From Martelella mediterranea (GTDB lineage: Bacteria > Pseudomonadota > Alphaproteobacteria > Rhizobiales > Rhizobiaceae): 64,000 nucleotides of DNA. The stretch spans positions 62,001 to 126,000 of the forward strand of contig PVUG01000014.1 of the NCBI GenBank assembly GCA_003001975.1, read 5' to 3'. Positions 16,338 through 34,756 of the stretch are shown here, piece by piece. The notes below the pieces were generated by a model. The model saw only the letters and a program-made list of their open reading frames with translations, was not told the DNA's origin and did not search any database. Each line of letters opens with the position of its first letter. Positions within the stretch are counted from its first letter, which is position 1. The translations under genes and the position numbers were made by a program.

Positions 16338-16352
16338 ACCCCGGAAAAACGC

Positions 16353-18947: not shown

Positions 18948-20156
18948 ATGACAGAAATCGAAACCATTCTCGCGTCGCAACAATTCAAGGCCGCTGCAGC
19001 CGTGCTGAAGGCGGATCATGACCGTTTCGTCGACGACATCATAACGCTGACGGAAATCCCTTCGCCGCCCTTTGGCGAGGAGAAACGTGCCTTAGCTTAC
19101 GAGGCGATGTTCAACGCGCTTGGCCTGGAGGATGTCGGCCGCGACGAGATCGGCAATGTCACCGGACTCAGGCGCGGGCGCGGCAATGGCGGGCTGACGG
19201 TCGTGGCCGCGCATCTCGATACGGTTTTTCCGGAAGGCACCGATTGCACAGTGCGGCGCGAGGGCACGAAACTGTTTGCACCGGGTGTCGGTGACGATAC
19301 GCGCGGGCTGGCGGTACTGCTTGCCTTCATCCGTGCGCTCGATGCCGCGAACATCGAAACGGAAAGCGATCTTCTGTTCGTCGGCGATGTCGGCGAGGAA
19401 GGCAAGGGCGACCTGCGCGGTGTCCGCCACCTGTTTACGGAAAACGCCTATCGCGACCGGATCACCGCGTTTTTCACCATGGACGGCATCAGCCTTGATC
19501 GTCTGGTGACCGGCGCCGTCGGCTCCCGCCGCTATCATATCAGCTTCACCGGGCCGGGCGGTCATTCGCTGGCGGCGTTCGGCACGGTCAATCCGGCCCA
19601 TGCCCTGGCGCATGTGGTCACCGGCCTGTCGCGGACGGAGGTTCCCGAAAATCCGCGCACCACCTATTGCGCCTCGGTTCTGGGCGGAGGCACCTCGATC
19701 AACGCCATTCCCAACGCAGTCTGGCTTGAAGTCGACCTGCGCTCCGAAGACGCCGGCGCGCTGAAGACGCTCGATGCGACCCTGCACCGGCTGATCGCCG
19801 AGGCCGTTGCGGAAGAAAACGAACGCGGCGATACCGAGTCGGGCGTCATCGCGGCAAAAGCCGAGCTGATCGGTAACCGCCCCGCCGGGCGCACGGCCGA
19901 AGACAGCCGGATCGTGACCGCGACGACGGCCGCTCTTCAGGCTTTCGGCTTCAAGGCGGAGCCGGAATTCAGCTCGACCGACGCCAATATCGCCATGAGC
20001 CTCGGCATTCCCGCCGTCTGCGTGGGCACCGGCGGCGATGGCGGCCGGGCGCATTCCCTCGAAGAATGGATCGATGTCGAGCCGGAAAACTCGGTCCGCG
20101 GCCTGACCGCCGGACTGGCGGCAATCCTTGGCACGGCAGGGCTGTGGAATAGCTGA
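18948..20156 (+). CDS. M20-family metallopeptidase
   Basis: A 402-residue cytoplasmic peptidase of the PepT/ArgE/DapE group. It has all the usual metal-site motifs: HLDTVF, GVGDDTRG (bridging Asp), GDVGEEGKGD (catalytic Glu and metal Glu) and a late His in GGRAHSLEEW. The dimerisation insert FTGPGGHSLAAFG lies mid-protein. The ATG at 18948 follows GAAGGA; upstream in-frame ATGs lie inside the promoter region. It probably hydrolyses dipeptides or N-acyl amino acids brought in by the neighbouring transporters and may be controlled by the divergent LysR gene. Confidence 0.88.
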   Translation: MTEIETILASQQFKAAAAVLKADHDRFVDDIITLTEIPSPPFGEEKRALAYEAMFNALGLEDVGRDEIGNVTGLRRGRGNGGLTVVAAHLDTVFPEGTDCTVRREGTKLFAPGVGDDTRGLAVLLAFIRALDAANIETESDLLFVGDVGEEGKGDLRGVRHLFTENAYRDRITAFFTMDGISLDRLVTGAVGSRRYHISFTGPGGHSLAAFGTVNPAHALAHVVTGLSRTEVPENPRTTYCASVLGGGTSINAIPNAVWLEVDLRSEDAGALKTLDATLHRLIAEAVAEENERGDTESGVIAAKAELIGNRPAGRTAEDSRIVTATTAALQAFGFKAEPEFSSTDANIAMSLGIPAVCVGTGGDGGRAHSLEEWIDVEPENSVRGLTAGLAAILGTAGLWNS

Positions 20157-20176
20157 ACCCGCTGCCCCCTATCAGC

Positions 20177-20210
20177 AATCCGGCAGCAGGATGGTTCCCG
20201 CCGCCGGATT
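20177..20210 (+). terminator. Probable terminator after the M20 peptidase
   Basis: AATCCGGC (20177-20184) pairs with GCCGGATT (20203-20210), followed by TTGTCGTTTTT on the + strand. It lies between convergent genes. Confidence 0.55.
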
Positions 20211-20244
20211 TTGTCGTTTTTCTGGGTGATTGTGAGCGAAAAGG

Positions 20245-21243
20245 TCAGCCCGCTGCGGCCACCAGCACAGCCTTCAGAAAACGGCCGAATTCATGCTTGG
20301 AAATCGCGCGACCCTTCCTGTCGGTATCGACGCGGTGAATGATGACCATGTCCAACGCCGGGACCACCATGCAATAATGCCCGCCGGCACCCTGAGCGGC
20401 ATAGGAGCCTGGGGGCGTGCGGACGCCGGGGGCGAAAACGCCGTCGCGCTCAAGCCACCAGCAATAGCCGTAAGCGCCTCTTGCGCCGGCGTGGGAATAG
20501 GGCATGACGTTTTCCTCGGCCCAGCCATCGGGCAGAACCATCTGCCCCGACCATGAGCCGTTCTGCAGGAAAAGCTGGCCGAACCGCGCAAGGTCGCGAC
20601 TGGAAAGGCGGAACGGATAGGCCTCGTGCCGCGAGACTTCGAACGTTTCCGTCCACGCGTCCGGCCTGTCGCCATCGAGCGAAAAATCCTCCATGCCCAG
20701 CGGCGCTGCGATGCGCTGTGCAAAGGCTTCTGCCACGCTGAGGCCGGTCTGCTGAACGAAGATGGAGCCGAGGGCGTTGAAGTCCCAGTTATTGTAGCAC
20801 CAGAAGGTGCCGGGCGCGTGGGAATGGCGCTTTTCCTTGATCATCTTCATCCATTCGGTTTCATAACCGGCCGGATGGTAGATGCCCGAACGCGCCGTCA
20901 GGAGGTCATAGACCGTGGCGTTGCGCTCAACCGGGCTTAAGGGATCGAGATCATCGATGTCGAGCTGTTCCAGCGTTGCCGACAGGTCGATGCGTCCGGC
21001 TTCAACATCTTCTCCGATCAACGCGGCAAGAAAGCTCTTGCGCATCGAATGGCACAGATATTTGTGTTCGATATCACCATGGGTGAAGACAATACGACCG
21101 CCCTGTGTGATCAGCACGCAATCGGTGTTCTGGCGGCCGATGACGGTCTCGAGTGCTGCGACGGCCTTCTCATTCCATCCCGCCGCTGCCGGCGTTTCGT
21201 AACGGTCCCAATGCGCTGCGGGATTGGCATTGATGCTGCCCAC
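20245..21243 (-). CDS. Serine hydrolase, beta-lactamase/S12 family
   Basis: A 332-residue protein of the beta-lactamase-related family with no signal peptide. The nucleophile motif SxxK appears as SMRK, the second motif as YNN (CYNNWDFN), and a GAGGH block occupies the third position. GTG at 21243 has AGAAAGG eight bases upstream and lies after a stem-loop; a GTG at 21312 would read through the hairpin. It follows an orphan peptide-binding protein in the same orientation, so an esterase or amidase role on the same imported compound is plausible. It is shorter than the D-aminopeptidase-like enzyme at 7707 and lacks that protein's C-terminal domains. Confidence 0.8.
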   Translation of the reverse strand: MGSINANPAAHWDRYETPAAAGWNEKAVAALETVIGRQNTDCVLITQGGRIVFTHGDIEHKYLCHSMRKSFLAALIGEDVEAGRIDLSATLEQLDIDDLDPLSPVERNATVYDLLTARSGIYHPAGYETEWMKMIKEKRHSHAPGTFWCYNNWDFNALGSIFVQQTGLSVAEAFAQRIAAPLGMEDFSLDGDRPDAWTETFEVSRHEAYPFRLSSRDLARFGQLFLQNGSWSGQMVLPDGWAEENVMPYSHAGARGAYGYCWWLERDGVFAPGVRTPPGSYAAQGAGGHYCMVVPALDMVIIHRVDTDRKGRAISKHEFGRFLKAVLVAAAG

Positions 21244-21276
21244 CTTGTCTACCTTTCTGAATTGTTTCTTGGAGTT

Positions 21277-21296
21277 CCCGGCGCCTGAACGCCGGG
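21277..21296 (-). repeat. Stem-loop after the orphan binding-protein gene
   Basis: A perfect 7-bp stem CCCGGCG/CGCCGGG with a six-base loop lies 16 bp after the binding-protein stop. Its core (GGCGCCTGAACGCC on the + strand) is identical to the core of the hairpin at 18883-18902. Confidence 0.6.
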
Positions 21297-21312
21297 AAAG
21301 AGAGGGAAGCAC

Positions 21313-22914
21313 TCACTTCGTGGCCTTGCCGTAGTAGATACGGAAGCCGTTCCACGTCCAGTCATGCAGCGTTTCGCGCTTGGCCGCGCTGTTCATGGTC
21401 TGCATGACATAGGCCATTGGCCCCTGCTGCATGATGTCTTCCTGAAGCGCGTGATACATCTCTGCGCGCTTTTGCGGGTCTTTCTCGAAAAGGGCAGCCT
21501 GAACGCGCGCGTTCATCTCCTCATCGAAATAGCCGGAGCGCCATGCCGGATACTGGGTCAGCTTGGCATCGAAACTGTTGTCGGGATTGTAGACGAAACG
21601 CGATGCCATGCCGTTGGCATCGGGAACGTTGGTCTTGAAACCAAGCAGGGCAGCCTGAAAATCCCGGCCACGGTTTCGGGAATAGAGCTGGGCATTGGAC
21701 ATGCGCTCGATATTGAAGGTGATGCCGGCCTGGCTGGCGGCCTGCTGAATCTGCTGGGCAATCGGCGTCCCATAGGGATGTGAGCCGACGAGAAGCGTGA
21801 CCTCGAAACCATCGGGATAACCGGCTTCGGCCAGAAGTGCCTTCGCCTTGTCGATATCGAGCGAAAAGGGCTCGCCCGCCGTCTCGTCGAGAGCGCCGAA
21901 GGAGCCGAGCGGCACAAATGATGCGCGGGCGACGCCGACGCCGTCAATGACGGTTTTGGACAGGCCCTGATAGTCGATCAGGTAGCGCATGGCCAGACGC
22001 ACCTTCGGGTCGTCAAATGGCTCTTCCTGGGCGTTCATGCCCATATAGAACATCGAGGGGATCAGCGTGCGGACAACTTCGACACCCTCGGCATCCGGCA
22101 GTTCGGCAAGATCCTCGGGCGCCAGATTGCGGGCGATGTCGATATCGCCCTTTTCCAGCAACAGGCGCTGCGTGCCGGTTTCGACAACATGGCGGATCAT
22201 GACGCGGCTGAGATTGGGCTTCGGTCCGTTGTAGTTTTCGTTTGCTTCCAGAATAACGGCCTCGCCCGGGTTCCACCGCGCCAGATGATAGGGGCCGACG
22301 CAGGCCGTCCTGTCCTGAAGATAGGCATTGCCGAGGTCGCCATCCTTCTCGTTGGCCTCGACTTCGGCGCGGTTGAGCATGACGGAAACGCGGTTGGCCG
22401 CGACGGAGGCAAGAACCAGATTGAGCGGATAAGGCTTGTCGAGTTTCATCACGATCGTGCTCTCGTCCGGCGCGGTGATGAGATCGTCAATCGTTTCCTT
22501 GGTGAAACCGTATTCCGTCAGGGAAGCGGAGTTTCCGAAGCCGAGATTGACGACGCGTTTCATCGACCACAGCAGGTCATCGGCTGTTCCGGGCGTTCCG
22601 TCGGGAAAGACGATATCGTCCTTCAGGTGAAAGGTGATCTGCAGGCCATCGTCGGAAACATCCCAGCTTTCGGCAAGTGCGGGAATAAAGCTGGCCTCGT
22701 CTTCGGGGTCGTAGTTCACCAGCGCGTCACAGGTGTTCATCACGATCTCATCGGTGACGACTTCCGCGATCTGGGCCGGATCGAAGCTTGAAATGGCATC
22801 GATGTTGTAAGCCATGATCAGTGCATCCTGTGGGGTTGCCGCCAGCGCCGGCGTCATCGCGGCGGGCAGCGTCAGGGCCGTCAGGCATAAAAGGGATGTT
22901 TTCATGAACTTCAT
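21313..22914 (-). CDS. Orphan peptide-type ABC substrate-binding protein (SBP_bac_5)
   Basis: A 533-residue periplasmic binding protein with a signal peptide ending TPALAA. The ATG at 22914 has AAAGGAG seven bases before it; an ATG at 22935 does not. No permease or ATPase genes sit beside it. It is plainly a paralogue of the binding protein at 11095, sharing NIDAISSFDPAQ, ALAESW, LSRVMIRHV, LTQYPAWR and NWTWNGFRIYY. The likeliest reading is that it feeds the same membrane core encoded at 12690-16337, widening its substrate range. It sits between the S9 peptidase and the serine hydrolase, all read leftwards. Confidence 0.9.
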   Translation of the reverse strand: MKFMKTSLLCLTALTLPAAMTPALAATPQDALIMAYNIDAISSFDPAQIAEVVTDEIVMNTCDALVNYDPEDEASFIPALAESWDVSDDGLQITFHLKDDIVFPDGTPGTADDLLWSMKRVVNLGFGNSASLTEYGFTKETIDDLITAPDESTIVMKLDKPYPLNLVLASVAANRVSVMLNRAEVEANEKDGDLGNAYLQDRTACVGPYHLARWNPGEAVILEANENYNGPKPNLSRVMIRHVVETGTQRLLLEKGDIDIARNLAPEDLAELPDAEGVEVVRTLIPSMFYMGMNAQEEPFDDPKVRLAMRYLIDYQGLSKTVIDGVGVARASFVPLGSFGALDETAGEPFSLDIDKAKALLAEAGYPDGFEVTLLVGSHPYGTPIAQQIQQAASQAGITFNIERMSNAQLYSRNRGRDFQAALLGFKTNVPDANGMASRFVYNPDNSFDAKLTQYPAWRSGYFDEEMNARVQAALFEKDPQKRAEMYHALQEDIMQQGPMAYVMQTMNSAAKRETLHDWTWNGFRIYYGKATK

Positions 22915-22944
22915 GGAGCGCTCCTTTGGAAACATGATTGCGGG

Positions 22945-24759
22945 TCAGGTGATGAGGTGTTTTTGAAGAAAGGCGGAAACGGCGGAGAAAACCTGTATCC
23001 GGTTGGCCGTGCGGGAAAATCCGTGGCCTTCATGGTCGATGCGTAGATATTCCACCGGCCGGTCGTGTCCCTTGAGCGCGGAATAGACCTGTTCGCTCTG
23101 TTCGATCGGGACGCGCGGATCGCAGTTTGCGTGGACCAGCAGAAGAGGCGCGTTGATCCGCTCAATCCGCGTCATCGGAGAGATATCGGTCAGCAGGGCG
23201 GCATCCTCGACCGGGTCGCCATATTCCGCCGCGCGCAGCCGCATCCGCCACGGACCGGTGGTCATCATCAAGGTGGTGAAATTGGAGATGCCGTAAAAAT
23301 CGATCCCGCAGCGCCAGGCCTGCGGCGCTTCGGTCATGGCGGCCAGCACCATGAAGCCGCCATAGCTCTGGCCCATGACGCCGATGCGCGACGCATCCAC
23401 ATCCGGGCGGGCGGCAATGGCATCGCGCAACGCCAGAAGGTCGCGCACGCTGTCCATACGCTTTTCGCGGTCGTCCATCTGGTGGTAGCGGCGGCCATAG
23501 CCGGTGGAACCGCGCACATTCGGCGCGATAACCATGATCCCCTGTTTCAGGTAGTATTGCAGGTCTGCCCGGAACTGCGCCTTCCACTGGTTTTCGGGGC
23601 CGCCATGGACCATGAACAGAACCGGCCATCCGCCGGCCGGCGGCGTCTGGTCCGGCGTGTAGAGGAAATAGGGGACGGACAGCCCGTCGAAACTGGCAAG
23701 ACGTTCGACAACCGGTTCTGTGAAATCATGGTCGCCGGTTGCGCCGTCCGGTTCGGCTATCCGGGTAAACTGTCCGTTCTCCAGCGCCAGACGCCAGTTG
23801 TCCGACGGGAAGGCGGGACCTGCCAGCGAAAACAGAAGCGCCGTATCATCTTCCGCGAATTTCAGGCCACCGATCTGCCCCGTGCCGGGCGCGCCGAAGT
23901 GGCGTATTGAACCATCTGCGAGGGCGACGAGTTCTATGCGGTCGATGCCCTCATGGTTGACGGTGCAGGCCAGTGTCGTCTTGTCAGAAGAAAGTGCGGC
24001 AACATCGACATCAACGCCGTCGGGCGCGAAAACGGGGGATAGTGCCGCAGTCCGGAAATCGGCGATGCAGGGGCGAAGAAAGTCATTGTCCTGATCCGTC
24101 AGGATCACCGCCCTTTGTGCGTCCTCATCGAGGAATTTGACAGAGAGATAGCGGGCGCGGCCTGCATGCGGCAGGGCAGGTGTCACGGAAAGGTTTGCAA
24201 GATCGATCCAGACCAGATCCTGGTCGCTCATCGACCGGCGGGAATCGTTGACGAGCAGGCGTTTGCCGTCCGGGCTGAAGGCGACCGGTTCCGCATAGCC
24301 GTCGTTGTCCATGACGATGCGGCTTTCGCCGGTGGCGATATCCATGACGTGGATATCCATTTTCGCCGCGTTCCGCCCGTTACAGCCATAGGCAATCGAG
24401 GCGCCATCGGGCGACCAGCAACCCCATGCGTGGACGCGGCCCGGTGCATGGGTCAATCGAATGGGGTCTCCATCGGCATTTTTCAGCAGAAACAGCCGAA
24501 AGCGTTCGTCCATGCCGCAATCGGTCACGAAAAGCAGGTCCCGGCCCTTGGGCGAAAACGTCATTGAGACGATCCGCTCGTCCAGATCAGTCACCTGCCG
24601 CGCCGGTCCGGCGGGACGCCCGTTTTCGGCCGGCATCAGCCAGATTTGGGCAATGCCGGTTTCATTGGAGAGAAAGGCGATCAGCGACCCGTCGGCGGAA
24701 ACGGCCGGGGCGGATTTTTCCGGTATCGATACGAGGGCTGATATTGAGGGAGATGTCAT
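22945..24759 (-). CDS. S9-family peptidase (prolyl oligopeptidase type)
   Basis: A 604-residue two-domain serine peptidase. Residues about 1-350 form a TolB-like beta-propeller (repeated blocks such as FSPKGRDLLFVTD, WSPDGASIAY and FSPDGKRLLVND). Residues about 350-604 are the alpha/beta hydrolase domain with nucleophile GQSYGG, Asp in DPRVP and His in HEGHGF. No signal peptide is seen, so it is cytoplasmic. It resembles acylaminoacyl-peptidases or oligopeptidases. It is encoded 30 bp before the orphan binding protein in the same direction, so an operon of peptidase, binding protein and serine hydrolase is likely. Confidence 0.9.
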   Translation of the reverse strand: MTSPSISALVSIPEKSAPAVSADGSLIAFLSNETGIAQIWLMPAENGRPAGPARQVTDLDERIVSMTFSPKGRDLLFVTDCGMDERFRLFLLKNADGDPIRLTHAPGRVHAWGCWSPDGASIAYGCNGRNAAKMDIHVMDIATGESRIVMDNDGYAEPVAFSPDGKRLLVNDSRRSMSDQDLVWIDLANLSVTPALPHAGRARYLSVKFLDEDAQRAVILTDQDNDFLRPCIADFRTAALSPVFAPDGVDVDVAALSSDKTTLACTVNHEGIDRIELVALADGSIRHFGAPGTGQIGGLKFAEDDTALLFSLAGPAFPSDNWRLALENGQFTRIAEPDGATGDHDFTEPVVERLASFDGLSVPYFLYTPDQTPPAGGWPVLFMVHGGPENQWKAQFRADLQYYLKQGIMVIAPNVRGSTGYGRRYHQMDDREKRMDSVRDLLALRDAIAARPDVDASRIGVMGQSYGGFMVLAAMTEAPQAWRCGIDFYGISNFTTLMMTTGPWRMRLRAAEYGDPVEDAALLTDISPMTRIERINAPLLLVHANCDPRVPIEQSEQVYSALKGHDRPVEYLRIDHEGHGFSRTANRIQVFSAVSAFLQKHLIT

Positions 24760-24878: not shown

Positions 24879-24927
24879 CGGCAAGGCGCGCTGCCATCAT
24901 CCTTGCAGCGCGCCTTGCCGTTTTTTT
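24879..24927 (+). terminator. Strong stem-loop with T7 tract facing the + strand
   Basis: A perfect 16-bp GC-rich stem (24879-24894 with 24905-24920), 10-base loop, then seven T on the + strand. It has the form of an intrinsic terminator for rightward transcription, yet both flanking genes read leftwards. It directly follows the stop of the hydantoinase-like gene, whose TAA overlaps the T run. Confidence 0.6.
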
Positions 24928-26467
24928 ATGAGAACGCGGCAATATCGCCGACGACGCGCACGCGCACGCGCCGCGCACCGCCGGGCAGATAGGCGATCGG
25001 AATGTCTTCGGTGTCGATCACGTTCACGCTTTCGGCCTTTGCGCCGGCGGCAACGGCGCGGTCACGCGCCAGACGTTCGGCTTCGGCGAGCGCTTCGTCG
25101 CGGCTCATCTCGGAAAACACCTGGTCGACTTCGCCGGACACCTGCGCCATGGCTGCGCCGAGCGCATTGGCGACGCCGGCGTGTTCAACCTTGACCACCT
25201 CGCTGATGCCCTTGATCTTTTCCGGGATCAGGAAAGCGCCGCCGCCGACGGCGATCAGCTTGACGCCTTCGGACGAAGTCTTCATCCGGTCGATGCCGTC
25301 TTCGACCATGCGTGCGATGCGGGCGAGCATGTCGGAGACGAAAGCCTGGTCCAGATGGCGCACGCGGTCGCGGTCGCCGATATCGGCAAGCCCGGCGGCC
25401 ACGGCAATATCGGTCGTCGTCAGCGTGTCGCCGCCGAAGACCAGCGCCTTTTCGGTAATCCTGTAGCCGACCGAACGCGGGCCGATGGTTCGGGTTTCGG
25501 GGTCGATGATGGTGCCGCCGCCAAGCGCCAGCGGCAGAAGATCGGGCATGCGGAACAGCGTGCGCACGCCGCCGACGGCGACGACATTGTTGGCCTCGCG
25601 CGGGAACCCGCCGACAAGGCAGCCGATATCGCTGGTGGTGCCGCCGACATCGACAACCATGGCCTCGCTCAGCCCGGTCAGGCTGGCCGCGCCGCGCATG
25701 GAATTCGTCGGCCCCGAGGCAAAGCTGTAGACCGGGTTGGCGGCGGCCACTTCCGCCAGCACCACGGTTCCGTCGTTCTGGGTGAGGTAGAAGGGCGCAT
25801 GAATGCCGGCCTGCCTGAGAGCCGCGCCGAAAGCGTCGATCGTATACTGTCCGAGGTTCTGCAACGCGGCATTCAGCAGTGTGACATTTTCGCGCTCGAG
25901 AAGGCCGATACGGCCGAGCGTGCTGGAAAGCGTAATCCGCGCTTCAGGAATGACGGAGCGGACGATTTCAGCGGCCTCATGCTCGCAGGCATCGGTCAGC
26001 GGCGAGAAAAGCGCGGTAATGCCGATGGCGGTGATACCGGCATCGCGCATCTTCATCGCGGCTTCGCGGACTGCGACAGTATCGAGCGGCACAAGTTCGC
26101 GACCGTCATATTCATGGCCGCCTTCGACCATGAAGGAAAGCGCGTCGACCTCGTTTCGAAGGTCCGCCGGCCAGTCGATCATCGCCGGAAGCGAGGCGCC
26201 TGCGGGCAGCGCGATGCGGATCGCGCCGACGCGTTCCAGCCGCGCGCGTTCGACAACGGCATTGGTGAAATGGGTGGTGCCGATCATGACCGCGTCAACC
26301 GGCGTGGCCGTTGCGGTCTCGTCTGCCATCACCTTGCCGATTGCCTGAACGACGCCCTGCATGACATCGGCCGTCGTCGGAAGCTTGACTGCGGCAAGAA
26401 CCTTATCGCCATCCAGCAGAACGGCATCCGTATTGGTGCCGCCAACGTCAATACCTATACGTTTCAT
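24926..26467 (-). CDS. Hydantoinase/oxoprolinase-type protein (HyuA-like, short form)
   Basis: A 513-residue protein of the hydantoinase A/oxoprolinase family with an actin-like ATPase fold. It has the N-terminal GIDVGGTNTDAVLLD, then MIGTTHFTNAV, NDGTVV and VDVGGTTSDIG, and a late AVGGGAFLIP. It lacks the long C-terminal extension of full HyuA. This short form is commonly found paired with a DUF917 protein, as here, where the TAA of the DUF917 gene overlaps its ATG. ATP-dependent opening of a five-membered cyclic amide such as a hydantoin or 5-oxoproline is the family reaction; the exact substrate is open. Confidence 0.88.
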   Translation of the reverse strand: MKRIGIDVGGTNTDAVLLDGDKVLAAVKLPTTADVMQGVVQAIGKVMADETATATPVDAVMIGTTHFTNAVVERARLERVGAIRIALPAGASLPAMIDWPADLRNEVDALSFMVEGGHEYDGRELVPLDTVAVREAAMKMRDAGITAIGITALFSPLTDACEHEAAEIVRSVIPEARITLSSTLGRIGLLERENVTLLNAALQNLGQYTIDAFGAALRQAGIHAPFYLTQNDGTVVLAEVAAANPVYSFASGPTNSMRGAASLTGLSEAMVVDVGGTTSDIGCLVGGFPREANNVVAVGGVRTLFRMPDLLPLALGGGTIIDPETRTIGPRSVGYRITEKALVFGGDTLTTTDIAVAAGLADIGDRDRVRHLDQAFVSDMLARIARMVEDGIDRMKTSSEGVKLIAVGGGAFLIPEKIKGISEVVKVEHAGVANALGAAMAQVSGEVDQVFSEMSRDEALAEAERLARDRAVAAGAKAESVNVIDTEDIPIAYLPGGARRVRVRVVGDIAAFS

Positions 26468-27543
26468 TATGCAAAAACCGATTTGTAATCAATGTCATAT
26501 CCGAAGGCGCGCGGGCCGACATGGGCAATGCCCTTCGCTGTCGTCAGCACATCCGGCGCGGGCAGGGCAACGGCGGTCACGCGCTGGCCGTAGCGAACGG
26601 TTTCCGTGCCGATGGCCTCGCCGGAGACGCTGTCGAGCAGGCAGATCAGGTCCGGTGTCATTGCTACCGGCGCGCCATTGCGGAAGGCAACCGCCCATTC
26701 GTTCTGGAACGCCAGTTCCAGCGTCGCGCCGTTATCGTCGTCGAGGCCGCCGATCGTCGCCATGCCGCGCAGAAAGCCGCCCGTCGTGGTCCGGTCGATA
26801 TCGGTCACCTTGCCGCGGAACAGAACCTTGCCGCCCTCGTGGCCGACAACGGCTGCCACCGGGTCTGAATGAGCCGCGCGGGCATCCTGCACGGCTCGCC
26901 CGAGCGCAATCGCCTTGGTGACGGTGTGAAGCACGCCCCAGTCCTTGACCTCACGGCCGGTGCGCGGCGCCTTGCAGGTCGCCGAAGTCGAGCCGACTTC
27001 GGTGCAGATCTGGCGGGAAATCCGTTCCATCCATTTCCAGGATGCCGCCTTGGCAACGATCGCCTCGTTGTCGCGGCAGTCGACCAGGGTCAGCGGATAC
27101 ATCGGCAGATCGCCGATCGCAAAACTGGTCATCTGGGCTTCCGGATAGGCGCGGCCCATGGCATCGGCATCCAGCACCGGTATGTCGAGCATCGCGCCCG
27201 CAAGGAAGGGCGACAGCGCATTGCCGCCGCCGATCTCGACGCTCATGATGGCGCGGAATTTCCGGCCCGTATAGTCTTCCATCAGGCGCACGGCGCGGGC
27301 CAGATGGGCGGGATCCACCAGCCGTTCCTGACCGACCAGCGGCGCGCCCATCTTGGAAACGACGGCGACCGCGTCGTCGTCATCAAGGGCCAGCGGGTCG
27401 AGAAGCCGGCAGCGTTTGCCGTCGCTGTACAGTTTCTTGAGATTGAGTTGGGCCAGATAGGGGCTTCCGCCACCACCGGTTCCCAGAATCCAGGCGCCGG
27501 TCGCCAGAGCATCGATCTCTGCCTCTTCAAATTCACGGATCAT
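26467..27543 (-). CDS. DUF917 / S-methyl-thiohydantoin desulfurase-type protein
   Basis: A 358-residue protein of the family formerly called DUF917 and now linked to thiohydantoin desulfurases. Visible blocks are the glycine-rich start WILGTGGGGSPYLAQLNL, SVEIGGGNALSPFLAGA, DADAMGRAYPE and a C-terminal VGPRAFGYDIDY. GGAGGTAAGA gives a strong ribosome site at 27543. It overlaps the HyuA-like gene by one base, so the two are surely co-translated and probably interact. Some relatives act in ergothioneine breakdown, but many occur in other hydantoin-like pathways; I do not assign a substrate. Confidence 0.85.
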   Translation of the reverse strand: MIREFEEAEIDALATGAWILGTGGGGSPYLAQLNLKKLYSDGKRCRLLDPLALDDDDAVAVVSKMGAPLVGQERLVDPAHLARAVRLMEDYTGRKFRAIMSVEIGGGNALSPFLAGAMLDIPVLDADAMGRAYPEAQMTSFAIGDLPMYPLTLVDCRDNEAIVAKAASWKWMERISRQICTEVGSTSATCKAPRTGREVKDWGVLHTVTKAIALGRAVQDARAAHSDPVAAVVGHEGGKVLFRGKVTDIDRTTTGGFLRGMATIGGLDDDNGATLELAFQNEWAVAFRNGAPVAMTPDLICLLDSVSGEAIGTETVRYGQRVTAVALPAPDVLTTAKGIAHVGPRAFGYDIDYKSVFA

Positions 27544-27682
27544 TCTTACCTCCGAAGATTGGACAGGAGCCTAACTTCTGAGTAGTTTTGCAGCTATAGG
27601 GGATTGCACCTAGAAATGCAGTGCCTTTTTATTAGGCATTTAGCTGGCGGTTTCACCGCCTTTTCTGATACGGAATTCATAC
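27544..27682. promoter_or_regulatory. Divergent promoter region with two inverted repeats
   Basis: 139 bp between the DUF917 operon and the AroM-LuxR gene. AAATGC (27614-27619) and GCATTT (27636-27641) form a spaced inverted repeat. GGCGGT-TTC-ACCGCC (27646-27660) followed by TTTT is a compact stem-loop that could act as an attenuator for the rightward gene. The region is a natural place for autoregulation by the LuxR-type protein. Confidence 0.45.
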
Positions 27683-28639
27683 TTGCAGATTTCAGACGAT
27701 CCAGATCGGCACCTTTCGCCCGGCGGCACGGAAAGACCGCGCCAGATCATGTTTGTCAGCGTCGGCCAGTCGCCGCGCACGGAACTGGTCGACAGCGTGA
27801 TGCGCGATGTCGGCATGCCCGTCGAGGCGCACGAAATCGGCGCGCTGGATGGTCTGGATGAAGAGGCTATCGACGATCTCAGGCCGTTGCCGGGCGAGGC
27901 GAGGATCATCACCGTGCTGCGCAATGACGAGAGCATCGTCTTGTCGAAACCGCGTATTGCCGACCGCATGTCACGCATTGTCGCGAATTTGCCATCCGGC
28001 GCATACGATCTTGTGGTGATCCTGACCACCGGTCTTTTCCGGGATTTCCAGAGTTCGTGCCCGACGGTCAATACCCAGCGCGTCATGGAGGCGACGGTCA
28101 TGTCGCTGGCATTTCGGGGGGATGCAATCGGCCTTATCCAGCCGCTGGAAGATCAGGTGGACGAGTTGGATATTCCGGCGCTCGGCCTGTTCCAGATCAC
28201 GGCCACACATGCACAGAACGCCAATCGCGCGTCTCTGGCCAGCGCGCTTCTCGATCTTGCCGAATGCGAGATCATCGTTCTCAATTCCGTCAGCTTCGAT
28301 GAGGAAGACCGCCAGACCGTGGCCAAGGCCAGCGGCAAGCCGGTCATCCTTGCCCGCCGGCTGGTGGCCGGCGCCATCCGGCTGCTGCTAGGCCGTCCCT
28401 ATCCGCCGCCACAGCCGGGCGCGTCGCAGGATTTCACGGACAAGCTGATGCGTCTGACCCCGCGGGAAAAACAGGTTCTCTCCCTGGTCGCCGAAGGGCT
28501 TTCCAACAAGGCCGTTGCCCGCCAGCTTGGCATCAGCCCGAAGACCGTCGAAATTCACCGCGCCAATGTGATGAACAAGATGGAAGTCAGCTCCGTCGGC
28601 GCGCTGATCCGGCTTGTGGTTTCTTCCGGTCAGTTCTGA
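27683..28639 (+). CDS. AroM domain fused to a LuxR-type DNA-binding domain
   Basis: A 318-residue protein with an unusual architecture. Residues about 23-235 are an AroM-family domain (VSVGQSPRTELV, IGALDGLDEE, SKPRIADRM, ARRLVAGAIRLLLG). After a proline-rich linker (RPYPPPQPG), residues about 255-318 are a GerE/LuxR helix-turn-helix (LTPREKQVLSLVAEGLSNKAVA, ISPKTVEIHRANVMNKM). At the two places where the neighbouring AroM protein has Cys, this one has Thr (ILTTG) and Ser (LNSVSF). I infer a ligand-binding, non-catalytic sensor that regulates transcription. TTG at 27683 with CGGAA upstream is the chosen start; ATG at 27749 would begin exactly at the AroM domain. Confidence 0.8.
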   Translation: MQISDDPDRHLSPGGTERPRQIMFVSVGQSPRTELVDSVMRDVGMPVEAHEIGALDGLDEEAIDDLRPLPGEARIITVLRNDESIVLSKPRIADRMSRIVANLPSGAYDLVVILTTGLFRDFQSSCPTVNTQRVMEATVMSLAFRGDAIGLIQPLEDQVDELDIPALGLFQITATHAQNANRASLASALLDLAECEIIVLNSVSFDEEDRQTVAKASGKPVILARRLVAGAIRLLLGRPYPPPQPGASQDFTDKLMRLTPREKQVLSLVAEGLSNKAVARQLGISPKTVEIHRANVMNKMEVSSVGALIRLVVSSGQF

Positions 28640-28673
28640 GCTATTCGGGTTTTGGCTGATTTTTAGGCGTGTC

Positions 28674-28799
28674 TTTTCATGAAATGCCTGTTTTTGCGGC
28701 GGGTTTGTCCGGCATGAAAAACGCCGGTTTAGGGGCTATTCCTGATAGAAGTGCGCGCGCCCCTGACGCTAGGCTGTTTTCATTCATGTATAAAACAGC
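28674..28799 (+). promoter_or_regulatory. Inverted repeats between the two AroM genes
   Basis: The 175-bp gap contains a perfect 8-bp inverted repeat TTTTCATG (28674-28681) / CATGAAAA (28713-28720). It also has a short stem CCGGC/GCCGG at 28709-28727 that may end the upstream transcript. A second 8-bp repeat, GCTGTTTT (28773-28780) / AAAACAGC (28792-28799), ends one base before the earliest possible start of the second AroM gene. These are candidate operators for the AroM-LuxR protein. Confidence 0.4.
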
Positions 28800-28814
28800 T
28801 TGCGGAATAAAGCC

Positions 28815-29492
28815 TTGAAAACCTCGCGCCTCGCTTTTGTCACCATCGGTCAGACACCGCGGATCGACCTTGTGCCTGAGATGGTTTCCGAAATCGTCGC
28901 CGGCCGTGAGGGCAATCCGCCGGAGATTGTCGAATTCGGCGTTCTGGATGGGCTTTCCGGCGCTGATCTCGATGCGCTGCGGGCAGAACCCGGCGAGCAT
29001 TCCTTTGCAACGCGGCTTGCCGATGGCAGCGAAATCGTCACCTCCAAGGATCGCACGGAAGAACGGCTGAACCGGCTTTTGCAGGATATCGACAGCAAGG
29101 GTTTCGACCTGATCGTGCTGTTGTGCACCGGCACGAAAATCGAGCCGTTGGCGAACACGCTCGTGGTCGAAGCCCAGCGCATCGTCGATTCCACCGTGGA
29201 AGCGCTGGCGCAGTCAGCGCGCAATCTCGGCGTCATTCTGCCGCTGGAGCGGCAGGTTGCCGATTTTGCCGAGCGGCATGTTTTCTCCCGCAATGCAAAG
29301 GCTGTGGCGGCCTCGCCCTATGCCGGAGACGATATGGCCGCACGTGCCGCCGCGCTTGCGGATTGCGACCTGATTGTCATGCATTGCATGGGCTATTCGG
29401 CCGCCATGCTGGAGGCGGTCCGCACATCGGTCGGTGCGCCGGTGCTGCTGTCGCGCCGGCTTGTGGCCGGTGTGGTCCGCCAGATGGTCTGA
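28815..29492 (+). CDS. AroM-family protein, cysteine-bearing paralogue
   Basis: A protein of about 225 residues made of a single AroM domain, the length of E. coli AroM, whose function is unknown. It aligns along its length with the AroM part of the upstream fusion (FVTIGQTPRIDLV, FGVLDGLSG, VLLSRRLVAGVVRQMV). It carries Cys at two positions, LLCTG (about residue 100) and MHCMGY (about residue 190), where the fusion has Thr and Ser. The second motif resembles the GCAGM motif of hydantoin and Asp/Glu racemases, so a racemase-like enzyme is possible. TTG at 28815 is preferred; TTG at 28800 is in frame. It lies 34 bp before a transporter operon. Confidence 0.8.
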   Translation: MKTSRLAFVTIGQTPRIDLVPEMVSEIVAGREGNPPEIVEFGVLDGLSGADLDALRAEPGEHSFATRLADGSEIVTSKDRTEERLNRLLQDIDSKGFDLIVLLCTGTKIEPLANTLVVEAQRIVDSTVEALAQSARNLGVILPLERQVADFAERHVFSRNAKAVAASPYAGDDMAARAAALADCDLIVMHCMGYSAAMLEAVRTSVGAPVLLSRRLVAGVVRQMV

Positions 29493-29526: not shown

Positions 29527-31131
29527 ATGAAGAGACGCAGTTTATTCCAGGGCCTGGCTCTGGGCTTTTTCGCAGCTTCCGTGATGGGCTCCGTGCTTCC
29601 GGCTGCCCCCGCCGCAGCTTTCGAGCGCACCGATGATGGCGAGATCATCGTTTTCGGCGGTCGGCAGGCCATTCCGGTGCTCGACCCGCATGTGCGCTAT
29701 GACTGGTCGACGCGCATGATCCAGCAGGGCGTCTACGATGCGCTGGTCAAATATGAGGGCGATCCGGCCGAAGTGAAGCCGTGGCTGGCCGAAAGCTGGG
29801 ACATCAGCGATGATGGCAGCACCTGGACCTTTCACCTCGCCGAAGGGGTGACATTCCACAATGGCGACCCGGTGACGGCCGAAGCGGTGCGCTACTCTTT
29901 CGTGCGCGGCCTTGAGTTGAACAAGGGCGTGGCCTGGATGCTCAAGGATTTTCTGAAGCCGGAAGGCATCAAGGTTGTCGACGACTACACGGTCGAGTTC
30001 AACCTCGAAAAGCCCTATTCGCCGTTCCTGTCCTTCCTGCCCTGGTGGTATGTGGTCAACCCGGCACAGGTGGAAGCCAATATCGTTGACGACGATTACG
30101 GGCAGAAGTGGCTGACCGACCACGAAGCCGGCTCCGGTCCGTTCACGCTTGGCCGCTGGGAGCCGAATGTCCTTTATGAAGTCGAGGCCGTCGACGACTA
30201 CTGGAAGGGCTGGCCGCAGGGCGACAACCATCCCGCCGGCGTTATTTACCGGATCATCCGCGAACCGGCTGCCCAGAAGGCGGCGCTGCAGCGCGGCGAG
30301 GTCGATATTGTCGAAGGGCTGACCTCCGACGATTATGTCCAGATCGCCAATGCACCGGGCATCGCGATCGAAAACCACAAGGGCATGACCACGTTCGGCA
30401 TCAAGTTCAACAACCAGAAGGGTCCGACCGCCGACATCAACCTGCGCAAGGCGATTGCCTATGCAATGGACTACGATGCGCTGGTCCAGATCTACAACGG
30501 TGCGGCAACACTTGAGACAAGCCCGCTGCCGGGCGCAATGAAGGGCCATGTCGACGTTGCCGGCATTCCGCGTCAGGATATCGAAAAGGCGAAGGAATAT
30601 CTGGCCAAGTCCGATTATCCCGATGGCGGCATCACGCTCGACTATGTGCATGTTGCCGGTCTGGAAGAGGCGCGACGGATCGGTCTCGTTCTGCTGGATA
30701 ACCTCAAGGCGCTCAATATCGACGTCAACATCCGTCCGGAACAGTGGCCGAACATGGTGGCTGCCGGCGCCTCGATCGACACCACGCCCGACATGACGTC
30801 AATCTACGCGACGCCGATCTCGACCGACCCGGATTCGGTGGCCTACATGTATCACCGCGACAGCTGGGACAAGTATTACGGCATTGCCCATTACGACAAT
30901 CCCGAGGTCTGGGCGATGATCGACGAGGCCCGCGCGGAAACCGACTGGGACAAGCGCGCCGATCTCTATGCTCGGATCCAGACGCAGATTGTGGCCGATC
31001 AGCCGGAGGTTTTCGGCATGCTGCAGAACCGTCGCTGGGCGCGGCGCGACTATCTTGAAGGCTTTATCTTCAGCCCCGTCCGCTTTACCGGCGAAGTCGA
31101 CCTTTATCCGCTGTGGATCAAGACCGAATAA
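29527..31131 (+). CDS. Peptide-type ABC transporter substrate-binding protein
   Basis: A 534-residue SBP_bac_5 protein with an N-terminal export signal (KRRSLFQG, then hydrophobic core, ending PAAAFE) that is slightly twin-arginine-like. Family blocks include DPHVRYDWST, AESWDISDDGSTWTFHL, GVTFHNGDPVTAE and LRKAIAYAMDYDAL. It is clearly more distant from the pair at 11095 and 21313 than they are from each other. AGAGGGAATGAA precedes the ATG. Together with the following permeases and dual ATPase it forms a second complete importer, whose ligand is presumably the compound processed by the HyuA, DUF917 and AroM proteins. Confidence 0.92.
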   Translation: MKRRSLFQGLALGFFAASVMGSVLPAAPAAAFERTDDGEIIVFGGRQAIPVLDPHVRYDWSTRMIQQGVYDALVKYEGDPAEVKPWLAESWDISDDGSTWTFHLAEGVTFHNGDPVTAEAVRYSFVRGLELNKGVAWMLKDFLKPEGIKVVDDYTVEFNLEKPYSPFLSFLPWWYVVNPAQVEANIVDDDYGQKWLTDHEAGSGPFTLGRWEPNVLYEVEAVDDYWKGWPQGDNHPAGVIYRIIREPAAQKAALQRGEVDIVEGLTSDDYVQIANAPGIAIENHKGMTTFGIKFNNQKGPTADINLRKAIAYAMDYDALVQIYNGAATLETSPLPGAMKGHVDVAGIPRQDIEKAKEYLAKSDYPDGGITLDYVHVAGLEEARRIGLVLLDNLKALNIDVNIRPEQWPNMVAAGASIDTTPDMTSIYATPISTDPDSVAYMYHRDSWDKYYGIAHYDNPEVWAMIDEARAETDWDKRADLYARIQTQIVADQPEVFGMLQNRRWARRDYLEGFIFSPVRFTGEVDLYPLWIKTE

Positions 31132-31182: not shown

Positions 31183-32205
31183 ATGCGGACGACAATGCTT
31201 TCATTTCTGCTGCGCAAGCTCCTGACGATTATCGGCACCATGATCGGTATCGCGGTGCTGACTTTCGTGATCACCAATATCGCGCCCGGCGATCCGGCGC
31301 GGCTGGTGGCCGGCCCCAATGCCACGCCGGATATGGTCGAGACCATCCGTGTGGAAAACGGGCTTGACAAGCCGATTGCCGAACAGTTCGTGATCTATAT
31401 GGGCAATCTGGTGCGCGGCGATCTCGGTACGTCGATCGTCACCACCCGTCCGGTGCTGGATGAACTGCTGCGCTATGCGCCTGCAACCATCGAACTTGTT
31501 CTGGTTGCCATGTCGCTCGGTGTTCTCGTCGGCGTGCCGCTCGGCATGCTATCCGCCGTCTACAAGGATACACCCTTCGACCATGCGGTGCGGATTTTCT
31601 CGATCTCCGGCGTGGCGCTGCCGGCCTTCTGGTTTGGCATTCTGCTGCAGCTTCTGTTTGCCGTCGATCTCGGCCTGCTTCCGGTCTCCGGCCGGCTGCC
31701 GCTGGTCACCCGCCCGCCCGACACCGTGACCGGGCTTCTGCTCATCGACAGCTTGATCCAGGGCCAGTTCTCGACCTTCGGCAAGGCGGTTTCGCACATC
31801 ATCCTGCCGGCGGTGGTGTTGTCCTTTCCCTGCCTCGCATCGATCCTCAGGGTCAACCGCGCCGAGATGATCGAAGTGCTGCAATCCGACTATATTGTCG
31901 CCGCCCGTGCGCACGGCATTGCCCGGACGCGGGTGATTATCGTTTACGCGCTGAAGAATGCGCTATTGCCGACCCTTGCGATGATCGGGCTGCGTTTCGG
32001 CTGGATGCTGGGGTCGACGGTTCTGGTCGAAACCGTGTTCGACTGGCCGGGCATTGGTCTTTATGCCGTGTCATCGGCGCTTTCATCCGATTTCAAACCC
32101 GTCATCGGCGTCACCCTCGTGATCGGGTTCTTCTTCATCGTCACCAATATGCTCGTTGATCTGGCCTATGTCTGGATCGATCCGCGCCTGAGGAAAGCCC
32201 GATGA
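31183..32205 (+). CDS. Peptide-type ABC transporter permease, DppB-like
   Basis: A 340-residue permease with six helices. It shows the family start LLRKLLTIIGTMIGIAVLTF, ITNIAPGDPARLVAGPNA, the middle block RIFSISGVALPAFWFGILLQLL and the ATPase-contact loop DYIVAARAHGIARTRVIIVYALKNALLP. ATG at 31195 is an alternative start that would remove four residues. The stop overlaps the next permease gene (ATGA). Confidence 0.92.
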   Translation: MRTTMLSFLLRKLLTIIGTMIGIAVLTFVITNIAPGDPARLVAGPNATPDMVETIRVENGLDKPIAEQFVIYMGNLVRGDLGTSIVTTRPVLDELLRYAPATIELVLVAMSLGVLVGVPLGMLSAVYKDTPFDHAVRIFSISGVALPAFWFGILLQLLFAVDLGLLPVSGRLPLVTRPPDTVTGLLLIDSLIQGQFSTFGKAVSHIILPAVVLSFPCLASILRVNRAEMIEVLQSDYIVAARAHGIARTRVIIVYALKNALLPTLAMIGLRFGWMLGSTVLVETVFDWPGIGLYAVSSALSSDFKPVIGVTLVIGFFFIVTNMLVDLAYVWIDPRLRKAR

Positions 32206-33116
32206 GCGATCTGCCAAGCGAAGTGCCGCAAACCCTTTCGTTCCGCGAGCGTCATGCCAGCACCATTCGTCAGTGGCGGCTTTATGCGTTCATGTTCCGC
32301 AAGAGCTTTTCCTCGATGCTGGGGCTGTTTCTTGTTGCCCTGTTTCTGATTCTGGCGGCAATCGGCCCGTGGATCGTGCCCCATCCCGAAGATGCGCTTG
32401 GCGCGGTCAATATGGGAGAGCGGCTGCTGCCGCCATCCTTCGCCCATCTTTTCGGAACCGATGAAATGGGAGCGGATATCTTTTCCCGGGTGATCGTCGG
32501 CACGCGGACATCGCTGTGGATCGGCATCGTGATTACCGGCGTGGCGGCGCTGATCGGTGTGCCGCTCGGCATTATCGCCGGCTATCGCGGCGGGTTTCTC
32601 CGCGCCGTTATCATGCGGGTGACGGAGCTTTTTCTGGCCGTGCCGGGGCTGGCGCTCGCGCTCGCCATCGTCGCCGCCCTCGGGCCGGGCATCACCAATT
32701 GCGTGGTGGCGCTTTCCCTGGTCTGGTGGCCGGGTTATGTCCGCCTCGTCGAGGCCAAGACGCTGGCAGTGAAGGAAGAGCTTTTCATCGAGTCTGCGCG
32801 CTCCATCGGGGCGAAGACGCCCTGGCTGCTCTGGCACCACATTCTGCCCAACTGCCTGTCGCCTATCATCGTCAAGATGAGCATGGATATGGGCATGGCC
32901 ATTCTGGCCGCAGCCTCGCTCGGCTTTATCGGCCTCGGTGCGCCGCCGCCGGCGCCGGAATGGGGTTCGATGATTTCGATTGCGCGCAGCTATATGCCGG
33001 ACTGGTGGTGGTATTCCTTCTTCCCCGGCATGGCGATTTTCCTGACCGTTCTGGGGTTCAACCTGCTTGGCGACGGTCTCCGCGACATTCTCGATCCCAG
33101 GAGCCGTGAACGATGA
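32202..33116 (+). CDS. Peptide-type ABC transporter permease, DppC-like
   Basis: A 304-residue permease of the DppC/OppC type. HLFGTDEMGADIFSRVI follows the first helix; LFIESARSIGAKTPWLLWHHILPN is the coupling loop; the end GDGLRDILDPRSRE is typical. It starts inside the stop of the DppB-like gene, and its own stop overlaps the ATPase gene, so the three are tightly coupled. Confidence 0.93.
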   Translation: MSDLPSEVPQTLSFRERHASTIRQWRLYAFMFRKSFSSMLGLFLVALFLILAAIGPWIVPHPEDALGAVNMGERLLPPSFAHLFGTDEMGADIFSRVIVGTRTSLWIGIVITGVAALIGVPLGIIAGYRGGFLRAVIMRVTELFLAVPGLALALAIVAALGPGITNCVVALSLVWWPGYVRLVEAKTLAVKEELFIESARSIGAKTPWLLWHHILPNCLSPIIVKMSMDMGMAILAAASLGFIGLGAPPPAPEWGSMISIARSYMPDWWWYSFFPGMAIFLTVLGFNLLGDGLRDILDPRSRER

Positions 33117-34756
33117 CCGATCTGCTTTCCATTCGCGACTTCTCGCTCGATATCGATACCTTCGATGGCGTCATTCCGGTTCTGAAGAACATCAATCTTT
33201 CGGTTGAGCGCGGCCAGACGCTCGGCATCGTCGGCGAAAGCGGCTCGGGAAAGACGGTGCTGGTGCGTTCGGTCATGGGCATCGGCCCGCGCCAGTCGCG
33301 GTGCACCGGCGGTTCCATCACCTTCGACGGGACCGAACTGACCGGGCTTTCCGACAAGGCCTGGGCCGGGATCCGCGGCATCCGCATCTCGATGATCTTT
33401 CAGGATCCGATGACCTATCTGAATCCGCTCTTCACCATCGCCACGCAGGTTGGCGATGTGGTGGCGGCGCACCGCCGGGCGGCGGGCGAACCGGTGCCGC
33501 CGCGCAAAGCGCGGCTGGCGCGTGTGGTCGAACTGCTGGATCAGGTCGGCATTCACGAGCCCGCGCGGGTTGCCGGGCAATATCCGCATGAGCTCTCCGG
33601 CGGCATGCGCCAGCGCGTGCTGATTGCCATGGCGCTGGCCGGCAAACCCGACCTGCTGATCGCCGATGAGCCGACAACCGCGCTCGACGTGACGGTTCAG
33701 GCGCAGGTGCTGGACCTGATCGGCAGTCTGGTCAGGAAGCTCAATCTGACCGTGGTGATGATCAGCCACGATATCGGCGCGATTGCCGCCGTGGCGGAGC
33801 GCTGTGCGGTGATGTACAAGGGCGAGATCGTGGAGCAGGGGCTGACGGCGGATATTCTGCGCAATCCCCAGCAGGACTATACGCGGCGTCTTCTCGCCGC
33901 CGTTCCCGATATCGACCGGGCACCGCCCGAACGGGCCGGCGATCAGCCGGAGCGAACCGATCACGCGCCGCTTGTCGAGGTTAACGGGCTCGAAAAAACA
34001 TATTCGGTCGGCGCGACCGGCACCATGAAAGCCGTCGACAATGTCAGCTTCCGGATTGAAAAGGGCGATGTGCTGGGCGTTGTCGGCGAAAGCGGGTCCG
34101 GCAAATCAACGCTGGCGCGGATGGTCCTCAGGCTGATCGAGCCGAGTGCCGGCGATGTGATCTTCGATGGCGTCAACCTGTCGGGGCTGACGGCGGAGGC
34201 GCTGCGGCGCAAACGGCAGGACATGCAGCTTGTGTTCCAGAACCCGCATTCGGCTCTCGATGGTCGGCACACGATCGGCGACGCCATTGCCGAACCGCTG
34301 CGCCTGCAGACAAGGATTGGCCGTCGCGAGATCGAGCGCCGTGTGGAAACGCTTCTCGATATCGTGCAATTGCCGAAACTGTTCAAATATCGCTATCCGC
34401 ATGAACTGTCCGGCGGGCAGAAACAGCGTGTCTGCATTGCCCGGGCGGTGGCGCTCAATCCGAAGCTGCTGGTGCTCGACGAGCCGACATCGGCGCTCGA
34501 TGTTTCGGTGCAGGCACAGGTGCTTTCATTCCTGCGGTCTCTGCGCGACGAGCTGGACCTGACCTATGTCTTCATTTCCCATGACCTCGCTGTTATCCGG
34601 CAGGTCTGCAACAGAACGCTTGTGATGCAGCGGGGCAGGGTTGTCGAGCAGGGGGAAACAGAGAAGCTGTTTTTGAACCCCGATCACGACTATACCCGCG
34701 CGCTCATCGAAAGCGGACGGCGGACATCGCCTGCGGCCCTGCAAGGGCGAATGTGA
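33113..34756 (+). CDS. Dual-domain peptide-type ABC transporter ATPase
   Basis: A 547-residue protein carrying both transporter ATPases in one chain, as in GsiA and YejF. Domain 1 (about residues 1-260) has GESGSGKT, signature [10 protein letters not shown] and [10 protein letters not shown]. Domain 2 (about residues 285-545) has GESGSGKST, signature [10 protein letters not shown] and [10 protein letters not shown]. Both switch His residues are present (MISHDI, FISHDL). It powers the importer made of the three proteins encoded immediately upstream. In contrast, the importer at 11095-16337 uses two separate ATPases. Confidence 0.94.

Follow-up and report, generated by a model that had tools for sequence, protein, structure and literature searches.

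An AroM-GerE fusion protein without the racemase cysteines, and a conserved palindrome between its gene and DUF917-hydantoinase A genes

The 64-kb stretch of Martelella mediterranea DNA analysed here (contig PVUG01000014.1, positions 62,001 to 126,000; hereafter the window) is part of a 131-kb contig in a genome of 4.63 Mb. It encodes a protein in which an AroM domain is followed by a GerE DNA-binding domain of the LuxR type, and this fusion lacks both cysteines that its stand-alone AroM neighbour shares with racemases. The genes and sites at the locus are as follows, ABC standing for ATP-binding cassette.

27683-28639, + strand: AroM-GerE (LuxR-type) fusion, 318 amino acids (aa), TTG start, PF07302 and PF00196 matches
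27752-28381, + strand: AroM domain of the fusion, residues 24-233; Cys1-equivalent Thr115 at 28025-28027, Cys2-equivalent Ser202 at 28286-28288
28451-28615, + strand: GerE/LuxR-type DNA-binding domain of the fusion, residues 257-311
28800-29492, + strand: stand-alone AroM, 230 aa; Cys109 at 29124-29126, Cys196 at 29385-29387; candidate cofactor-independent racemase/epimerase
27597-27612, no strand: putative operator 1, TAGGGGATTGCACCTA, a 7-2-7 inverted repeat in the divergent promoter
28730-28745, no strand: degenerate operator copy TAGGGGCTATTCCTGA, 6.1 bits, upstream of the stand-alone AroM
26467-27543, - strand: DUF917 (S-Me-THD N and C domains), divergent from the fusion
24926-26467, - strand: short hydantoinase A/oxoprolinase-type protein, one-base overlap with the DUF917 gene
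29527-31131, + strand: family 5 solute-binding protein, peptide-type ABC transporter component
31183-32205, + strand: peptide-type ABC permease
32202-33116, + strand: second ABC permease, assigned by position and conservation, not by Pfam
33113-34756, + strand: double ATPase of a peptide-type ABC transporter

Both proteins match the AroM profile PF07302 over its full length, with 134 bits for the fusion (residues 24-233) and 187 bits for the stand-alone AroM against a cut-off of 23.8, and both are thus members of the AroM family. The C-terminus of the fusion matches PF00196 GerE with 76 bits (residues 257-311), which places it in the LuxR/GerE superfamily; the invariant GerE residues were kept in all 19 aligned fusions, and the helices are predicted in the model. 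These matches bear out the first-pass annotation of the window, which had described an AroM domain fused to a LuxR/GerE domain next to a bare AroM paralogue. FixJ was the best NCBIfam match over the GerE part, though under the cut-off of that model. No Pfam match to a receiver domain was found in the N-terminus, where AroM lies, and none to an autoinducer-binding domain in the fusion, so the protein is neither a two-component response regulator of the NarL/FixJ type nor a quorum-sensing LuxR. Its start codon is probably the TTG at 27683, and the TTG-CAG start context is also present in its closest relative (L071). The two AroM domains share 33% identity over 221 aa, and no other AroM match at E <= 0.001 was found in the 4.63-Mb genome.

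In the fusion the motifs ILTTG and LNSVSF carry Thr (codon 28025-28027) and Ser (28286-28288), where the stand-alone AroM has Cys in LLCTG (29124-29126) and MHCMGY (29385-29387). This difference had been read from the letters by the first-pass annotation; it is confirmed by codon, and because it is present in every intact fusion examined it is not due to chance. When the AroM domains were aligned, none of 51 distinct intact fusion domains had Cys at either racemase position, so the fusion lacks the cysteine pair of a two-Cys racemase. The residues at the Cys1- and Cys2-equivalent positions were Ser/Ser in 42, Thr/Ser in five, Met/Ser in two, Ser/Ala in one and Ala/Ser in one. The three plasmid fusions inspected by eye had neither Cys. 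Among 68 distinct intact stand-alone AroM domains, including those from clusters of the same type, Cys2 was present in all 68 and Cys1 in 61. The Cys1-less ones are seven of the nine sequences of a family (f220, L059-L067) which we take to be enterobacteria and keep Cys2 only; outside it, both Cys were present in 59 of 59. The conservation that the earlier reading depended on was thus observed. A split fusion (L127) was excluded from both counts.

Four overlapping sets of genomes were searched for AroM: 61 relatives, and 394, 385 and 398 genomes from the family, the class and the phylum, respectively. A GerE tail was found on 19 of 70 fetched AroM loci, the window's own included. A scan of genome contigs for the fusion gave 39 named loci (e.g. 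Rhizobium, Neorhizobium, Pseudorhizobium, Microvirga, Ferrovibrio and Sneathiella), and a scan of plasmids gave six records, of which three were examined (Ketogulonicigenium, Neorhizobium and Shinella). The set used below comprises 54 non-duplicate fusion genes in 52 loci, namely the window and large regions (L071-L129) selected for holding a fusion, eight twice-present contigs having been removed; nine AroM-only genomes (L130-L138) were added. The hosts are Alphaproteobacteria so far as the records state, one record being titled only Proteobacteria. Of the 398 Pseudomonadota genomes sampled, 14 had an AroM match, and no fusion was found outside Alphaproteobacteria; the search was confined to this phylum.

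The fusions formed a single clade (44 of 102 tree rows) with support of 100/96 when all columns were used, and the clade kept a Shimodaira-Hasegawa-like approximate likelihood ratio (SH-aLRT) of 95 after removal of the cysteine columns and their neighbours. The trees leave out the split fusion, the eight duplicate loci and nine loci of the Neorhizobium type that are nearly identical, and several long branches limit their detail. Since the fusions are a single clade, the loss of the cysteines is best read as one early event that has been kept since, and a recent duplication of the neighbouring AroM is ruled out as the origin of the fusion. Judged by this clade and its hosts, the fusion is an old alphaproteobacterial protein. 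The first-pass annotation had proposed an enzyme and a catalytically dead sensor copy of it; this reading is supported, except that the sensor did not arise by recent copying of its neighbour. In seven closely related pairs (eight were tried; the fusion of L092/L093 was not computable) the ratio of nonsynonymous to synonymous substitution rates (dN/dS) of the fusion AroM domain was 0.03-0.14, and in the eight pairs tried for the stand-alone AroM it was 0.07-0.13. By this measure the putative sensor domain is under purifying selection and not decaying. Across 16 fusion AroM domains, G, GQxPR, G-LD, TG, Q and PV show no or almost no variation, and part of this pattern recurs in stand-alone AroM. 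A chance fusion, pseudogene or assembly error is ruled out by the 54 non-duplicate genes in 52 loci and the low dN/dS. Two clusters (L087 and L129) hold two AroM-GerE fusions each, one divergent from DUF917-HydA and the other from the AroM-transporter operon. The split fusion, at 7923-8893 of L127 (Mesorhizobium sediminum), lies in two overlapping frames, through a frameshift or sequencing error. Paired distant AroM-like proteins were also seen in two genomes of the same genus (L006, L007, L010 and L011 in G007 and G012), about 7 kb apart; they are open frames of 263-302 aa with 38-43 bits and without a GerE tail.

The predicted models had a mean predicted local distance difference test score of 93.9 for the stand-alone AroM and 86.0 for the fusion. 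When the stand-alone model was compared with the PDB by Foldseek, all 11 matches at E <= 0.001 were in the racemase superfamily (arylmalonate decarboxylase, hydantoin or allantoin racemase, maleate isomerase and glutamate racemase), with other folds appearing at weaker E. The fusion model matched 4ix1, a protein that is uncharacterised, best; below it came FixJ and further GerE proteins, interspersed with the racemase-superfamily entries already named, and PrpR (2pju) was also matched. The AroM domain is thus predicted to have the fold of the Asp/Glu/hydantoin racemase superfamily, and the comparison gave no contrary fold. At the sequence level the stand-alone AroM has a sub-threshold match to the Asp/Glu/hydantoin racemase profile PF01177 (21 bits against a cut-off of 31) and aligns weakly with hydantoin racemase 2eq5 (E 0.019). 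The resemblance of the Cys motifs to those of racemases, suggested earlier from the letters, is seen in the alignment of both Cys with those of PF01177 proteins and of 2eq5.

In 48 of the 54 cases, DUF917 is the immediate divergent neighbour, at most 500 bases from the fusion. The six exceptions are L073, where DUF917-HydA and the fusion share a strand, the fusion being the downstream one; L088, where DUF917 is divergent but 1.9 kb away; L126, whose contig ends there; one fusion each of L087 and L129, the second of the two, which is turned towards the AroM operon rather than DUF917; and L078. In the last, genes for a fused hydantoinase A/B, an AroM and an M20 hydrolase come after the fusion, and no DUF917 match was found in its genome (G301). 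DUF917 is thus nearly an obligate partner, with G301 as the exception. A stand-alone AroM was placed by script within 3 kb downstream on the same strand in 43 of 54 cases, and the neighbourhood data add L128. In three genomes (G026, G590 and G687) the fusion is the sole AroM match, which rules out an obligate pair of AroM enzyme and sensor. The AroM-GerE architecture, whose neighbours the first-pass annotation had hoped would be informative, was found in 54 genes, and the partner that stays with it is DUF917-hydantoinase A and not the AroM enzyme. Seven of the nine AroM-only genomes also have DUF917 within the stretch.

On the Shinella plasmid, a PF01177 Asp/Glu/hydantoin racemase gene (126 bits) lies downstream of the fusion where AroM usually sits, an M20 gene follows HydA, and no AroM was seen in the 16.9 kb shown. 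On the Ketogulonicigenium plasmid, an M20 hydrolase gene directly follows the fusion. The combination of racemase, hydantoinase and M20 amidohydrolase recalls the hydantoinase process. The transporters vary, with family-5 solute-binding protein systems in most loci, the SBP_bac_8 class in L072 and an OPT transporter in Shinella. The window's DUF917 protein was rejected as a thiohydantoin or S-methyl thiohydantoin desulfurase, as it missed the NCBIfam equivalog cut-offs (111.7 bits against 450 and 88.7 against 440). Two further adjacent DUF917 genes lie elsewhere in the window's genome (contig C3, 296367-297928), and in L073 a luciferase-like monooxygenase gene (7314-8666) comes right after the fusion, with two DUF917 and HydA sets around.

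A usable DUF917-fusion intergenic region was available for 48 of the 54 fusions, and 40 of these regions, spanning several families, contained a 16-bp palindrome of the TAGGGGACTGCCCCTA type (15 or 16 of 16 positions matching), TAGGGGACTGCCCCTA being the form in most rhizobial loci. In all 40 it lies at a fixed distance, 113 or 114 bases, from a DUF917 codon that is conserved; it was not found in the remaining eight regions (L083, L085, L086, L087, L089, L090, L128 and L129). The window operator, TAGGGGATTGCACCTA at 27597-27612, is the only place in the 64 kb that reaches at least 10 bits, and in the 4.63-Mb genome it is the sole place within one mismatch of TAGGGGNNNNCCCCTA, while a reversed-pattern control gave five on each strand. 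A terminator-like hairpin with a T-rich tail lies between this site and the TTG start (27646-27660); it may be due to chance, because the scanned stretch has five such sites against a shuffle mean of 1.8.

When a weight matrix trained on the 40 distinct palindrome regions was run over the 52 non-duplicate loci (930,465 bases, threshold 14 bits), 74 matches were obtained. Of these, 39 were at fusion promoters (the training sites), 33 lay at most 250 bases upstream of a non-fusion AroM domain, and two were elsewhere (L078 and L090). Because the L127 match precedes the split fusion, the held-out matches upstream of stand-alone AroM number 32, not 33. A second putative operator, held out from training, therefore precedes the operon of the stand-alone AroM and the transporter in 32 of the 39 loci whose fusion promoter gave a match. 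No second site of at least 14 bits was found in the other seven (the window, L071, L072, L082, L092, L093 and L117), although those of L071 (13.0) and L072 (14.0 when rounded) fall just below the threshold. The reversed sequence of 51 loci, the window excluded, gave two matches in 866,465 bases. Ketogulonicigenium, which was not in training, has two matches of at least 11 bits in 16.9 kb, one of 14.2 bits abutting the fusion start codon and one of 19.3 bits between the fusion and the M20 gene; both sites are also present on the Neorhizobium plasmid, which is related to the training loci.

For the more distant fusions the evidence is looser. TA-N12-TA sequences such as TACGTGCGAGCACGTA precede the divergent fusions of L085, L086, L087, L089, L090, L129, L073, L078 and Shinella (several by eye only), but they are suggestive only, because the loose pattern TACGTN6ACGTA with at most two mismatches occurs one to five times per locus in 12 loci. 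No such site was found before the fusion in L083, L088 or L128, nor in L126, where the contig starts there; before AroM one is present in L083, L126 and L128, and none in L088. A comparison by eye of recognition-helix residues with operator type gave no clean link. The 7-2-7 geometry of TA-N12-TA suits a GerE dimer of the NarL/FixJ type, and the fusion presumably binds the palindromes.

Taken as a whole, the evidence makes it probable that the fusion acts as a one-component regulator whose racemase-fold sensor is catalytically dead and which controls the DUF917-hydantoinase and AroM-transporter genes for the degradation of hydantoin- or oxoproline-like cyclic amides. In this model, the availability of a cyclic amide resembling hydantoin, thiohydantoin or 5-oxoproline would be coupled to its uptake by the ABC transporter, to its stereo-inversion by the stand-alone AroM and to its ATP-dependent ring opening by DUF917/HydA. 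The AroM domain of the fusion would keep the two-lobed racemase fold without both proton-transfer cysteines, and with these lost it would bind a pathway compound without turnover. The GerE domain, probably as a dimer, would bind the 16-bp 7-2-7 inverted repeat (TAGGGGACTGCCCCTA) at site 1, between the divergent DUF917-hydantoinase A operon and the fusion gene, and at site 2, before the AroM-transporter operon, and ligand binding would change its DNA binding or activation. An enzyme seems to have been turned into a regulator by loss of both catalytic cysteines and gain of a DNA-binding tail. We infer that the sensor domain is inactive and ligand-binding, that the stand-alone AroM is a racemase, and that the substrates are of the cyclic-amide class. 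The ligand is more likely a substrate or product of DUF917/HydA than an AroM-only product, because DUF917-HydA is constant and no AroM other than the fusion occurs in G026, G590 and G687. That the sensor regulates transcription, as the first-pass annotation supposed, agrees with a conserved palindrome at both expected promoters; the regulation itself we infer.

The residues found at the cysteine positions also bear on another explanation, a bifunctional trigger enzyme: the fusion would be catalytically active as a racemase or isomerase, either Ser/Thr-based or one-sided, and would bind DNA as well. Of the 51 distinct intact fusions, 47 have Ser or Thr at both sites (Ser/Ser 42, Thr/Ser 5), and arylmalonate decarboxylase, a superfamily member without one Cys, is among the structural matches of the fusion. 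Nevertheless, we regard it as very improbable, since both Cys are gone in 51 of 51, Met/Ser, Ser/Ala and Ala/Ser combinations also occur, and such an activity would be redundant with the stand-alone AroM that follows most fusions. The AroM part could alternatively be a scaffold for dimerisation or structure only, the regulator responding to another signal or to its own level. This would suit a regulator that has no known ligand and whose GerE domain needs a dimer, and racemase-family enzymes are commonly dimers; it is made quite unlikely by the (nearly) invariant GQxPR, G-LD, TG, G, Q and PV of the 16 fusion domains and by the strong purifying selection on the domain.

The palindrome may belong to another regulator or be a conserved promoter feature, and a GntR gene (L078), MarR and LysR genes (Ketogulonicigenium), a LysR gene (Neorhizobium) and an RpiR gene (Shinella) do lie nearby in the four loci examined. 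These regulators are not of one family, however, and in 40 of 48 regions, drawn from several families, the site adjoins the gene of the fusion; its geometry fits a NarL/FixJ-type GerE dimer, and we hold this explanation to be distinctly improbable. As to the stand-alone AroM, another enzyme of the same superfamily and pathway, a decarboxylase or a cis-trans isomerase, would leave the reading of the sensor unchanged. Arylmalonate decarboxylase and maleate isomerase are among its top Foldseek matches, and seven of nine f220 AroMs retain Cys2 only, but both Cys in 59 of 59 others, the racemase gene in AroM's usual place in Shinella and the DUF917 and hydantoinase neighbours make this unlikely. 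A more specific form of the regulator model, that the protein reads stereochemistry, we consider unlikely. There, the dead racemase pocket would bind the enantiomer (or a planar intermediate-like form) that the hydantoinase cannot open, and switch on the racemase that converts it.

Several points weigh against the proposal of a dead-sensor regulator. All support for it is computational, and a Ser/Thr sensor could keep slow activity. As the fusions are a single clade, the cysteine loss counts as one (or a few) events, not as 51. The template modelling scores of the 11 Foldseek matches are moderate (0.45-0.61). An hhalign comparison of 25 stand-alone AroMs with seven proteins above the PF01177 cut-off, which aligned both Cys (95.4%, E 1.9e-8), is not independent, because the seven were chosen via a weak match to the AroM profile; with the Shinella PF01177 protein, which was not preselected, the match is weak (33% over 27 columns) and out of register, the AroM Cys1 motif being paired with the second Cys motif of the racemase. 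The window's second site is degenerate (6.1 bits at 28730, TAGGGGCTATTCCTGA), and 13 of the 52 loci have no matrix match labelled as a fusion promoter, L127 being among them as its match precedes the split fusion. The Shinella plasmid gave no matrix match, and the site position in Ketogulonicigenium suits self-repression there better than activation. No sigma-70-like promoter was found in the region. Finally, the fusion and the stand-alone AroM need not share a ligand, because three genomes hold the fusion without another AroM.

Beyond these genes, the window contains a second peptide-catabolism block (7707-24759).

7707-9245 and 20245-21312: two beta-lactamase-fold hydrolases
9449-10981 and 18807-20156: two M20 peptidases
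10978-16337: Opp-type ABC system
16353-17723: MmgE/PrpD
21313-22935: family-5 solute-binding protein
22945-24759: S9 peptidase, for which no match was found within the relatives' regions

Both window proteins match the AroM family, of which E. coli AroM is an example, far above its cut-off; the fusion differs by the added GerE domain and the loss of both Cys, while seven of the nine f220 proteins lack Cys1 only. With the PF01177 superfamily (2eq5, allantoin racemase 5lg5 and glutamate racemase) the stand-alone AroM shares the predicted fold and two equivalent Cys, but AroM matches that profile only below its cut-off, and the fusion has no Cys at the equivalent places. The fusion resembles NarL/FixJ-type response regulators in its GerE domain, closest to FixJ in NCBIfam, and in the 7-2-7 site, by the geometry commonly ascribed to them, and differs in having a racemase-like input domain and no receiver domain. 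BzdR and PrpR are one-component regulators that reuse an enzyme-like domain to sense a pathway metabolite; they are of different families, and the fusion is set apart by an intact relative of its sensor next door and by the visible loss of catalytic residues. Enzyme-derived sensors in regulators are already known; what is new here is the palindrome. A search of open-access PubMed Central found no literature on the AroM-GerE fusion or its operator. A racemase-like fold predicted for AroM proteins and the association of AroM with DUF917 in gene clusters have been published, AroM being described as experimentally uncharacterised (PMC11055893). There, clusters of DUF917, AroM and hydantoin racemase genes, likewise with peptide transporters, were noted around cyclodipeptide oxidases, and the passages on these genes do not mention a GerE fusion, Cys loss or operator.

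The conserved cluster ties AroM to ring-opening enzymes and uptake, and a regulator of the same fold would provide a genetic handle, with an operator for reporters and a sensor for ligand screening, as well as paired enzyme and pseudo-enzyme pockets for comparison. Because plasmid records name the fusion 'AroM family protein' (5/6) or 'hypothetical protein' (1/6), an alphaproteobacterial regulator family is probably going unnoticed. If the stereochemical form of the model were true, it would be a sensor of metabolite handedness derived from a racemase fold.

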